A stretch of DNA of 64,000 bases from Eubacteriales bacterium (lineage in GTDB: Bacteria; Bacillota; Clostridia; Lachnospirales; Lachnospiraceae). Every line of letters starts with the position of its first letter. Position 1 is the first letter of the stretch. The notes beneath the pieces are model-generated. The model had not been told where the DNA came from. It did no database searches and was given only the letters and a program-made list of their open reading frames with translations. Below, in pieces: positions 24,162-42,071 of this stretch. The DNA lies in NCBI GenBank assembly GCA_030524745.1, contig JAUNGC010000018.1, positions 1-64,000 of the forward strand, written 5' to 3'. Position numbers and translations under genes: made by a program.

Positions 24162-24434
24162 CAATGTCCTTGAGTTTAGCAGGTGGGAATCCTGCTTGGT
24201 AAAGTCCAGTCAGACAACCAATAGCGAGTCATGGAGCGTCATCAGCAATGATGCCGCTTAAGCGTTGACAGTCAGGTAATAGGCTTGAAAGTGATTGAGC
24301 CCCGTTAAGGGCTATAAGAATGGAATCTGCCGACATCTTGCATGTGATGGAAGGCAACACCTGTAACTGCGTTATGGCGAGTAGTTTCAGGGATTCCCGG
24401 GGTCGTAGAGCCAAGCATGTTATACAATGACTCA
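24151..24434 (+). mobile_element. 5' fragment of a group II intron (domain I region)
   Basis: Immediately after the Rpn fragment the sequence begins GAGCGACAT, close to the GUGYG start of group II introns. It is non-coding but rich in small perfect stems: GACAT/ATGTC (24155-24168), GCAGG/CCTGC near 24180, CATCA-GCAA-TGATG with a GNRA tetraloop (24240-24253), and AGCCC/GGGCT near 24300. No reverse transcriptase and no domain V/VI are found before the next gene begins at 24437. I read it as a truncated intron that interrupted the Rpn gene. It could also be another structured RNA. Confidence 0.6.
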
Positions 24435-39227: not shown

Positions 39228-39689
39228 TCATAGCGTTGTTCTTTGACGTACCTTATCGTTCATCTGCTCGATGCGTTTTTTCATGCGCCAGAACTGTACG
39301 ATCCAGATAAAGAGGTAGATTCCGAAAAAAATGCCGAAGTACAGGAAAACCCCGGTCAGATTATGGGGCATCCAGCGCATGAAGTATGCGATCGTAAAGA
39401 TTGCAACTGAGCAGACAACCAGATGGACGACGGTCATTTTCAAAAGACTCCAGTTCTCCATTTCCCAGATCGCGGAAGCCCCGCCGCAGGCTGCGCCGTA
39501 GAGTAGCGAGCAGACCGCCTGTATGAGAACCGCGTTCATCTCTGTTCCGAAATCGGAAATCAATCCGGGTTCAATGGCATAATAGTGACCGTCGTTCACG
39601 ATAAGCGAAACCGCAATGGTAATCGCATAGCTGATTGCCAGGCCGACCGGTGCGCCAAACAGGCACCGCATTAAAATTTTCTTTTTCAT
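39228..39689 (-). CDS. DUF3021 family membrane protein
   Basis: 153 aa with four membrane helices (CLFGAPVGLAISYAITIAVSL, then VLIQAVCSLLYGAACGG, a third near 85-105 and a fourth near 113-135) and a short charged tail. It matches the DUF3021 pattern, which is commonly encoded next to a LytTR DNA-binding protein, as here: it begins 10 bases after the lytTR stop. Such membrane partners usually hold back the LytTR regulator (family knowledge, not shown here). Confidence 0.82.
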   Translation of the reverse strand: MKKKILMRCLFGAPVGLAISYAITIAVSLIVNDGHYYAIEPGLISDFGTEMNAVLIQAVCSLLYGAACGGASAIWEMENWSLLKMTVVHLVVCSVAIFTIAYFMRWMPHNLTGVFLYFGIFFGIYLFIWIVQFWRMKKRIEQMNDKVRQRTTL

Positions 39690-39699
39690 AAAACTCCTT

Positions 39700-40140
39700 T
39701 CATATTCCTAAAACCTGTTTGATTTTTGGGACATATCGTCTTGAAACATAGGCTACGCTTCCGTCCGAAAGGGAAACGCAGATAGTTCCGGTGAAACTCA
39801 GATCAAAATTTGTGACCTTTTTTAAATTGATGATTTCGGAATTGGAAATGCGGACGAAGCTGTTTTTATCGAGCCGCTCTTCCAGTTCGTACAAACGCAG
39901 CCGAAGCATATATTCTCCGTCTTGAGTCGCGGCAAAAACCTTGCCGGCAGCGGCATAAATCCGGACAATGCGCTGCTGCTCCAGAATTTTGAGCGTATCG
40001 TCCCGGAATCCGGCCAATGTCATCGGCGCGTCAAGAGACAGCTTTTTGAAGATCAGATTCACTTCGTCCGTGATTTTGTCGGTCAGGATGAGGATTTTCG
40101 GTTCGGCGCAGGTTTCGTCGATTTTAATTTCAATTTTCAA
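39700..40140 (-). CDS. LytTR-domain DNA-binding regulator
   Basis: 146 aa from TTG 40140, behind AAGGTGAT. The open frame continues to 40485 but that part is the antisense of a large hairpin and is upstream of the promoter. The N-terminal half (KILILTDKITDEVNLIF) is a short beta/alpha domain. The C-terminal LytTR domain has LYELEERLDKNSFVRISNSEIINLKKV and YVSRRYVPKIKQVLG. No receiver domain. It forms a pair with the DUF3021 gene and probably regulates its own operon. Confidence 0.85.
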   Translation of the reverse strand: MKIEIKIDETCAEPKILILTDKITDEVNLIFKKLSLDAPMTLAGFRDDTLKILEQQRIVRIYAAAGKVFAATQDGEYMLRLRLYELEERLDKNSFVRISNSEIINLKKVTNFDLSFTGTICVSLSDGSVAYVSRRYVPKIKQVLGI

Positions 40141-40165: not shown

Positions 40166-40194
40166 AGTATAGAAAATATGCGCTGCTTTATCAA
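40166..40194 (-). promoter_or_regulatory. lytTR operon promoter
   Basis: On the minus strand TTGATA (40194-40189), 17 bases, TATACT (40171-40166). The transcript begins near 40159, downstream of the large palindrome, so the palindrome is not in this leader. Confidence 0.7.
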
Positions 40195-40251
40195 TCGATT
40201 TCGGACGGTCGGTCGATTCCGGAGAATAAGTGGTACGGGGCGGTGAAACAA

Positions 40252-40457
40252 CCCGGCGTCAGCCTGCGGCCCGTGTGCATGTTCTCCCCGGGCGGCGCAT
40301 CTATCCTTCCCGGACACGCTCCCGCTCGGGAAACGCGTAGCAGTACATAGGGCGGCAAAGGACGCCGCCCAAGTGCTGACGCGTTTCCAACGGTCCGGAG
40401 AAGGATAGATGCGCCGCCCGGGGAGAACATGCACACGGGCCGCAGGCCGACGCCGGG
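40252..40457. repeat. Giant near-perfect palindrome (about 206 bp)
   Basis: The arms 40252-40309 and 40400-40457 (58 bases each) are complementary at 57 positions. Inside, CCGGAC pairs with GTCCGG (40310-40315 and 40393-40398), GGAAACGCGT with ACGCGTTTCC (40329-40338 and 40379-40388) and GGGCGGC with GCCGCCC (40350-40356 and 40364-40370) around an AAAGGAC loop. GC-rich, no coding frame I can support, located between two divergent promoters. It could be a miniature inverted-repeat element, a cruciform site or an independent structured RNA. Confidence 0.9.
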
Positions 40458-40474
40458 ATGCTCCGACGATCCTG

Positions 40475-40500
40475 ATAAACAGCATACATAAACAGCATAC
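40475..40500 (+). repeat. 13-bp tandem repeat
   Basis: ATAAACAGCATAC occurs twice in direct succession just upstream of the yfcC promoter. Confidence 0.85.
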
Positions 40501-40506
40501 AGGCGG

Positions 40507-40535
40507 TTGAAAAAAGGCGGGCAGGGTTGTATACT
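40507..40535 (+). promoter_or_regulatory. Promoter of the YfcC-family gene
   Basis: TTGAAA at 40507-40512, 17 bases, TATACT at 40530-40535. Transcription from near 40542 supports the start codon at 40617 rather than 40554. Confidence 0.75.
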
Positions 40536-40616: not shown

Positions 40617-42071
40617 ATGACTGCAAAAGAGCGACAGGGAGAAAAACAGGAGCAGAATCAGGTGAAAGGATTTGGGATCAGTGTGCGTTCCTTTTTGACG
40701 GCGCTCGTCATGCTGTTTGGGCTGATGGTGCTGACCTGGGTGCTCACCTTTTTCATCCCGGGTGGGGAATTCCAACGCGTCTATGCGGATGGGAAAGAAC
40801 AGGTGCTAGCCGGAACTTTTGCATATGTGCAGGGACATCTTCCCTTCTGGAAGTGGCTCCTTTCTCCGGTTTTGGTGCTGGGCGCTGACGGCGGCGGTAC
40901 CATGATTGCAATTATCGTTTTCCTGCTCGTGATCGGCGGCATTTTTCACTGTATGGACAAAAGCGGAATGATGTATTATATGCTGCTGGCGATCAGCCAC
41001 AGATATGAGAAAAAGAAATATCAGATGCTGATGGTCATTGTGCTGTTTTTTATGTGCATGGGAAGCTTTGTGGGCTCCTTTGAGGAGAGCGTGCCGCTGG
41101 TGCCGATTGTTGTGGGACTGGCCGTTTCCATGGGATGGGATGCGCTTGTGGGACTTGGCATGAGTCTTCTTGCCATCGGCTGCGGATTTGCAACCGGTAT
41201 CTGCAATCCTTTTACGGTGGGCGTGGCCCAGCAGCTTGCGGGCCTGCCGATGTTTTCGGGCGCAGCGCTGCGCATTTTCTCCTTTGTGGTCATTTATCTG
41301 TGCCTGACCGCTTTTCTGATCCGCTACGCAAAGAAAGTGGAAGCGCATCCGGAAAAATCCGCTTTGTATGGAAAGGAAATTTCCAATGCCTATGGAAATG
41401 TGATGCGGGATACGTTTGAGAAGGATGCCGATAAGGCGAAGGGGCTCAGGAGATTTTGCCTGATTCTGGGCGGCGGAATCGTGTTGATCTTTGCGTCCGG
41501 CTTTCTTTCCTTTTTACAGGGAATTATCATGCCGCTGATCGCGGTGCTGTTTCTGGCGGCAGGACTGTCGGCGGTGCGGGCCTGCAGGATGGACTGGGGA
41601 CAGATCGGGCGTTACTTTAAAGACGGCGCGGTGAGCCTGCTTCCGGCAATTCTGCTGATTTTAATGGCGGGCAGCGTGAAATATACGCTGACAGAAGCGA
41701 AGATTCTGGATACGATTCTCTATGAAGCCTCCGGATTCATTGAAAAAATGCCGGGCGGCACGGCTGTGCTGCTTTTATATGCCTTTGTTCTGGCGATGAA
41801 TTTCTTCATCGCCTCCGGTTCGGCAAAAGCGTTTCTGATGATGCCGCTGATTACGCCGATCACGGATTTCTGTCAGGTCTCCCGTCAACTGGGCGTGTTG
41901 GCCTTTGCGTTTGGCGACGGCTTTTCCAACGTGTTTTACTTTACCAATCCGGTGCTTTTGATTGCGCTGGGACTGGTGGGAGTCGGCTATGGAACCTGGG
42001 CGAAGTGGAGCGCGAAAATTCAGGTGGTGATTCTGGCGGTGACAAGTCTGATCCTGCTGGCGGCAGCGTAA
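40617..42071 (+). CDS. YfcC family (DcuC-type) transporter
   Basis: About 484 aa from ATG 40617 with AAGGGG just upstream. A dozen hydrophobic segments with the C4-dicarboxylate anaerobic-carrier (PF03606) landmarks: LTWVLTFFIPGGEFQR near the N-terminus, GGIFHCMDKSGMM, CMGSFVGSFEESVPLVPI, GFATGICNPFTVGVAQ and FFIASGSAKAFLMMPL. The family carries dicarboxylates, arginine/ornithine or peptides; no substrate can be set here. It is convergent with the SDR gene, with only 10 bases between the stops. Confidence 0.85.
   Translation: MTAKERQGEKQEQNQVKGFGISVRSFLTALVMLFGLMVLTWVLTFFIPGGEFQRVYADGKEQVLAGTFAYVQGHLPFWKWLLSPVLVLGADGGGTMIAIIVFLLVIGGIFHCMDKSGMMYYMLLAISHRYEKKKYQMLMVIVLFFMCMGSFVGSFEESVPLVPIVVGLAVSMGWDALVGLGMSLLAIGCGFATGICNPFTVGVAQQLAGLPMFSGAALRIFSFVVIYLCLTAFLIRYAKKVEAHPEKSALYGKEISNAYGNVMRDTFEKDADKAKGLRRFCLILGGGIVLIFASGFLSFLQGIIMPLIAVLFLAAGLSAVRACRMDWGQIGRYFKDGAVSLLPAILLILMAGSVKYTLTEAKILDTILYEASGFIEKMPGGTAVLLLYAFVLAMNFFIASGSAKAFLMMPLITPITDFCQVSRQLGVLAFAFGDGFSNVFYFTNPVLLIALGLVGVGYGTWAKWSAKIQVVILAVTSLILLAAA

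Follow-up and report, generated by a model that had tools for sequence, protein, structure and literature searches.

Template switching is a known process, and MITEs and REP repeats are known elements. Bacterial MITEs are short, non-coding and dispersed, as is the element described here, and the inverted ends and target duplications found for it in one Lachnospiraceae genome (G061) agree with them. Integron attC sites function as a folded strand with extrahelical bases and poorly conserved arms, and all three features recur in our element. The REP, REPIN and BIME sequences with their RAYT transposases, as far as excerpts of PMC3733652 describe them, are likewise abundant intergenic palindromic repeats. 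Bacterial stem-loop repeat families are dispersed, structured and mostly intergenic in the sections of PMC2267715 that treat them, and the mobile double-hairpin elements of mitochondria are, in partial descriptions, short mobile hairpins. Template switching at inverted repeats homogenises arms and inverts spacers according to passages of PMC8604942, and part of PMC8794818 describes how it can give double changes in one event. Arm homogenisation, spacer inversion and double substitutions are common to these reports and to the present family.

The palindrome of the window

The window, i.e. the whole stretch of 64,000 nucleotides that was analysed, contains a long palindrome. It represents a small mobile DNA element, copies of which lie dispersed between genes in several gut bacteria. 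A sequence-only reading had placed this palindrome at 40252-40457 with arms matching at 57 of 58 positions. The arms were found again and are three bases longer at each end (40249-40460), the left one covering 40249-40309 and the right one 40400-40460, with 61 nt each, 97% complementarity (59/61) and 90 nt between them. More paired blocks follow inward of the arms and end, as had also been noted, at a loop of 7 nt (AAAGGAC, 40357-40363). RNA folding of 301 nt around the palindrome gave -204 kcal/mol against a mean of -111 for shuffled sequences (z -19.4; 0 of 100 shuffles as low), and DNA folding of the palindrome region gave a z of -17.1 (0 of 200 shuffles as low). The features are collected in Table 1, where the sense strand of the head is the minus strand by convention, i.e. 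the strand bearing the GNRA loop.

Table 1. Features of the window palindrome and its surroundings (positions in the window)
Feature	Position	Strand	Remark
Outer left arm	40249..40310	-	pairs with 40400-40460, 97%
Outer right arm	40400..40460	-	pairs with left arm
Conserved asymmetric head	40311..40399	-	match of model R1, G000:C26:40296-40412 minus, 115.3 bits
GNRA tetraloop GGGA in side mini-hairpin GAGC-GGGA-GC	40320..40323	-	
Apical stem-loop, 7-bp stem and 7-nt loop	40350..40370	-	
Promoter-like site toward LytTR gene	40166..40194	-	consensus match only
Promoter-like site toward carrier gene	40507..40535	+	consensus match only
LytTR DNA-binding protein gene	39700..40140	-	PF04397, 1.7e-21; start approximate
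DcuC/YfcC-type carrier gene	40617..42071	+	PF03606, 9.7e-61; start chosen by eye
13-bp tandem repeat, two copies	40475..40500	.	probably incidental

The earlier placement of the palindrome between divergent promoters agrees with two promoter-like sites found around it, compared with 0.5 in shuffles (consensus matches only). Both flanks of the window copy were matched in no other genome, so that no boundary between element and flank can be set within its arms. A gene for a DUF3021 protein (PF11457, window 39228-39689) adjoins the LytTR gene. Elsewhere in the window, at 24186-24412, a group II catalytic intron domain is matched (RF02005, 143 bits), unlinked to the palindrome element.

Copies, anatomy and ends of the family

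A search for copies in the same and other Lachnospiraceae genomes, which the sequence-only reading had set as a check, found them in both. When the own genome (G000) was queried with 231 bases, 18 further places were returned with E 6e-8 or better, and a covariance model of the head (R1) gave at least 21 copies there. Since the same head occurs at 18 further places of the own genome and in other assemblies, a local assembly fold-back is unlikely. With R1, at least 65 copies were found in the Eisenbergiella genome G003, at least 68 in G007 and at least 25 in G002, followed by at least 3 each in G004 and G006 and at least 1 in G011; the remaining 6 genomes of the 13 in the genus gave none. R1 counts are lower bounds, with 150 first-look candidates scored per genome. 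All 150 scored candidates matched in a Robinsoniella MAG (G062, at least 150 matches), and a Lachnospiraceae MAG (G061) had at least 60 matches.

Outside the genus, a DNA-similarity search matched 1 of 48 genomes (G023). A scan of genome contigs returned at least 117 stretches, of which 80 were scored with the model, giving 38 matches, all in Eisenbergiella, Robinsoniella or Lachnospiraceae; to the remaining 37 the arm script only was applied. No match at E 1e-3 was found for a G061 copy in a plasmid collection or for the window copy in a phage collection. Another 28 stretches of viral contigs, matching an 18-mer of the head, were taken as chance matches, the listed ones being without arms of more than 4 columns.

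The head is asymmetric and about 90 nt long (about 85-97 nt in most copies). Its parts are an inner stem, an apical stem-loop, which comes in two main forms, and a one-sided mini-hairpin, GAGC-GNRA-GC. The loop of this side hairpin could be located in 147 of 151 copies from G000, G002, G003 and G007 and is GNRA in 144 of these 147; among the located loops the second position is A, C or G, never T. Leaving out 16 partial or weak-armed elements from the 151 gives a set of 135 palindromes with a median length of 226 nt. Their arms cover 38-126 columns (median 66) and are nearly perfect within a copy and mostly unlike between copies. Columns 6-10 of the sense-left arm hold an extrahelical base in 112 of the 135. 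The gene context, from a crude call based on ORFs, is co-directional for 61 of the palindromes, convergent for 34 and divergent for 26, with 12 at an edge and 2 within an ORF.

Similarity between the arms of different Eisenbergiella copies is weak. A score of at least 15 was reached by 40 of 1225 pairs in G003 (reversed 4, shuffled 0), by 30 pairs in G007 (reversed 1, shuffled 1) and by 2 of 105 in G000 (reversed 0, shuffled 0). The arms have a G+C content of 0.71-0.75 compared with 0.46-0.56 in the flanks (G000, G003 and G007), and that of the first 50 nt in 19 G061 copies is 0.43. G+C-rich arms fit G+C-biased repair, for which they are not proof.

Two copies of the own genome have unusual structures. 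In L015 (G000:C57:105966-106103) the head carries an extra small hairpin, AAAGACTGC AAA GCAGTCTTT, resembling a template-switch insertion; this copy lies near the G000 match of locus L282 described below, seemingly within one and the same intergenic space, and its arms are unlike. In L014 (G000:C9:25824-25917) part of one arm and part of the head are gone between short direct repeats TGCGGCCC, which by eye is a typical palindrome deletion.

The family is short, dispersed and multicopy without evident coding capacity, as are MITEs. In G061 the copies are uniform and have inverted ends CAATGTCATTnACTTAAGC; this end motif, when 2 mismatches at most are allowed, occurs 157 times forward and 151 times reverse in that genome, and a reversed-pattern control occurs 0 times. 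The G061 element is 188 bp long, and among 20 excised copies most have 188-189 bp, some 208-209 bp and one 351 bp. Flanking direct repeats of 9 bp, again a MITE feature, were found at 15 of the 20 (up to 1 mismatch; exact in 14), two further copies having exact flanking repeats of 8 and 11 bp. At L115 and L133, 9-bp duplications were read by eye. The element is thus dispersed, and in G061 its ends are defined and its target sites duplicated over 9 bp. Of the options offered by the sequence-only reading, the non-autonomous inverted-repeat element is supported.

Around 132 Eisenbergiella copies no clear signal of target duplications was obtained (repeats of at least 7 bases: 3 vs 2.6 in the control; at least 8: 2 vs 0.5), and the link to MITEs in that genus therefore rests on the shared head. 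The 13-bp tandem repeat beside the window palindrome is present as described. Its suggested role as a mark of insertion finds no support; the G061 duplications are 9 bp long with the element standing between them, and around Eisenbergiella copies none were seen. A word like TTACAGTTCAC stands beside several insertion sites in G061 (copies L434, L442, L443, L446, L448, L450 and L451), and may be a preferred target or part of another repeat. The ends of the Robinsoniella element read CAGTTCAGCC.

By end motif, no autonomous partner was found among the G061 single-end stretches and viral contigs examined. For 7 of the 8 single-end stretches ORFs were listed and for 3 checked against Pfam, giving no transposase. 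A scan of 24 viral contigs with the end motif gave a single weak candidate for its inverted partner (L470, 4 mismatches); ORFs were listed for 7 of these contigs and checked against Pfam for 5, giving helix-turn-helix matches only and no transposase. The end motif in the viral contigs L462, L463, L468, L470, L471, L472 and L475 is CAATGTCATTTACTTAAGCC, followed by a similar stretch up to GTTA, and the 5 viral contigs checked have helix-turn-helix genes no more than about 2 kb away.

Extrahelical bases and a side mini-hairpin could also be the recognition signal of a strand-specific unit moved by a hairpin-reading enzyme, such as an IS200/IS605 Y1 transposase, a RAYT or an integron-integrase-like protein. 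The bulge at columns 6-10 in 112/135 palindromes is what such an enzyme might read, but we find this reading quite improbable. The Y1 transposase (PF01797), present in 4 of the 13 genomes, was not found in the copy-rich G003 and G002 (at least 65 and 25 copies; G002 is 68% complete) and was found in the copy-less G010 and G008, making it an unlikely mover. The 9-bp target duplications of G061 argue in the same direction: transposition of single-stranded DNA is not known to make target duplications, and duplications of 9 bp point to a DDE-type transposase.

Probable rewriting of arms, heads and flanks

Eisenbergiella arms are locus-specific yet self-complementary. In columns 10-55 of the 135 palindromes (5959 columns; orthologous copies were entered apart, so that not all are independent) there are 204 mismatches, and on the sense strand 77 of these are of G.U type vs 90 of A.C type (p 0.35). 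A set of 64 copies counted before, which overlaps with this one (columns 11-55; L110 of 65 copies left out), gave 46 vs 38. Selection on an RNA would tolerate G.U and reject A.C, and as there is no wobble bias, arm pairing seems to be maintained at the DNA level. Perfect arms, which had been taken as a sign of recent origin or selection, are better read in another way, since old locus-specific copies stay matched because both sides change together.

Covariation is strong in an alignment of 29 heads with their inner arm bases, which are related sequences chosen by head pattern, so that cells are not independent events: 97.5% of cells are paired, 20 of 34 pairs have changed on both sides, and 156 cells have a two-side change, 7 a one-side change and 25 are unpaired. 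Such covariation, together with a GNRA tetraloop in 144/147 located motifs, would be expected of a family of structured RNA genes in which the hairpin is transcribed and its pairing kept by selection on the RNA. An RNA role of the head is possible and compatible with the GNRA loop. As an account of the family, however, we judge the RNA gene improbable, and the separate hairpin RNA proposed by the sequence-only reading gets no support from the arms, where A.C is as frequent as G.U. Double changes with few one-side intermediates (with the same reservation on non-independent cells), heads that flip between species and the occurrence of every gene context among the 135 copies also speak against it, and the window palindrome has no match in Rfam (E up to 1; the one chance-level match lay elsewhere).

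Head orientation was compared between 1.41 Mb of G003 and 0.70 Mb of G007. Among 24 shared filled sites the head has the same orientation at 18 and is inverted at 6, between species only, and base-by-base alignment of 3 of the 6 shows an inverted head between conserved arms. Between G002 and G003 copies there are 6 with the same orientation and 2 flipped; between G002 and G007 there are 4 and 3, respectively, plus 2 without counterpart. Two of the G002 flips are ambiguous, a single G002 element standing opposite two neighbouring elements.

In favour of an assembly artefact, the named relatives are MAGs and several elements lie at contig ends. It is nevertheless hardly credible that the palindromes arose from short reads folded back or chimerically joined, as the same structure is present in several separate assemblies. 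In 23 of the 135 palindromes the arms match perfectly over a run of 55 nt, and in 5 of the 6 flips neither the G003 nor the G007 copy has such a run, so that a 55-mer graph would be unambiguous at those flips (assembler settings are not given).

Inverted heads at 6/24 shared sites, and a window copy between divergent promoter-like sites, would also suit an inverton, i.e. a site-specific invertible switch toggling the two divergent promoters of the window. Both promoter-like sites of the window lie outside the inverted repeats, however, and no sigma-70-like match was found inside 40249-40460 of the window copy. As only 26 of the 135 copies stand between divergent genes, we hold a switch of this kind to be very improbable.

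Heads have been exchanged between loci as well as flipped. Of 23 G003/G007 pairs compared (the 24 minus one partial), 15 reach a similarity of at least 0.85 in both arms; the other 8, with an arm under that value, are outside this set. In 8 of these 15 the G003 head is closer to a G007 head from another locus than to its orthologue, by at least 0.08 (for 2 of the 8 because an insertion of about 19 nt stands at the apex), and in the other 7 the orthologous head is as good or better. The head of L299, for instance, scores 0.81 to its orthologue and 1.00 to L249:19598 at another locus, and its arms score 0.94 and 0.90 to the orthologue. In three of the 8 pairs outside the set, L256/L237, L305/L242 and L272:3208/L281:3143, the site is the same, yet arms and heads are both unlike, which is unaccounted for.

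Copied flank can be part of the arms. At L282 in G007, 24 bp of native sequence are present on both sides of the element, inverted, and once at the uninterrupted site of G003, with a related form in G002; the locus is uninterrupted in G010 too, at 67% identity. The join lies within a short shared word, CCCGC, as would be expected for strand switching back. At L314 in G003 the palindrome enters the 3' ends of convergent genes for an S41 peptidase and a MatE transporter, and these unrelated genes both end in KQKQAAQ before the stop. The ends of the same gene pair differ in G010, G009 and G004, with stops 49, 13 and 5 bp apart; both gene ends were recognised by script in these 3 of the 12 species with the peptidase. 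The simple reading is that an element inserted there and that the end of one gene was then rewritten, the donor gene being uncertain. In the Robinsoniella copy L095:3877 pairing runs, by eye, 17 bp beyond the end common to two other copies.

Ten sites are without counterpart (8 in G003/G007 and 2 in G002). L282 shows flank copying clearly, L254, L319 and L409 are suggestive of it, and L247 shows none, while L237, L240, L244, L414 and L351 have no reading; the empty side of L409 is equally explained by deletion between short repeats. The arms of L247 are absent from its empty site, so that not all arms are flank copies. Flank copying as the sole source of all arms was ruled out by L247 and by the weak arm similarity between copies.

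Proposed mechanism and relation to known systems

We regard it as quite probable that the window palindrome is a MITE copy with a conserved, structured head, from an aged family that has been remodelled by hairpin template switching. A DDE-type transposase, the candidate suggested by the 9-bp duplications, would have moved the element in trans. Polymerase template switching on the extruded hairpin would then rewrite the arms against each other and flip the head, and switching past the element end would copy flank into an arm. Head exchange between loci is outside the reach of template switching within one hairpin, and a second process is therefore needed. Recombination between copies may provide it, perhaps started by SbcCD cutting of the hairpin. 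SbcD was found in 12 of the 13 genomes and was not found in G006, which has at least 3 copies, and SbcCD is thus a possible, not a demonstrated, part of the mechanism.

That the GNRA loop hardly varies and that extrahelical bases recur suggests that the head is under selection, which goes beyond the account of a MITE remodelled by template switching. The head could be a homing unit without an endonuclease of its own, in which an SbcCD-like cut and repair from another copy spread the fittest head; we consider this rather unlikely. Repair would then also flip the head and lengthen the arms by flank copying, so that the structure would drive its own spread and upkeep; the role of the GNRA loop and bulges would be to direct hairpin formation or cutting to one strand.

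Under the preferred reading of a remodelled MITE, a family with both uniform and locus-specific copies is a natural record of hairpin rewriting, in which double changes, inverted heads, flanks copied even into coding sequence and exchanges among loci can be followed. Bacteria with SbcCD are expected to lose or cut long palindromes, yet some of the genomes compared here retain dozens to more than 100. The family also calls for caution in that strong covariation in an alignment does not necessarily indicate a functional RNA.

The differences from the known systems are as follows. Integron attC sites share the folded strand with an element whose copies are, in contrast, dispersed and flanked in G061 by 9-bp target duplications. 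REPs have 20-40 bp, according to excerpts of PMC3733652, compared with a median of 226 nt here, and the element has no link to a Y1 transposase. The stem-loop families come from a survey of 40 genomes, the excerpted text of which (PMC2267715) is without the string 'lachno', and their likeness is by description and not by sequence. The mitochondrial double-hairpin elements belong to an organelle, and here too the likeness is by description. Template switching is reported, in PMC8604942 and PMC8794818, for short repeats in yeast genes and for RNA genes, whereas here it would act on a mobile family and include flank copying. No description of this element family was found in open-licence papers. 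Unlike bacterial MITEs, the Eisenbergiella element is best conserved in its centre, which flips and is exchanged, and its ends are locus-specific and rewritten together. A bacterial MITE with a conserved centre, locus-specific and mutually rewritten ends, head inversion, exchange and flank copying is thus apparently new, as judged from the open-licence literature.
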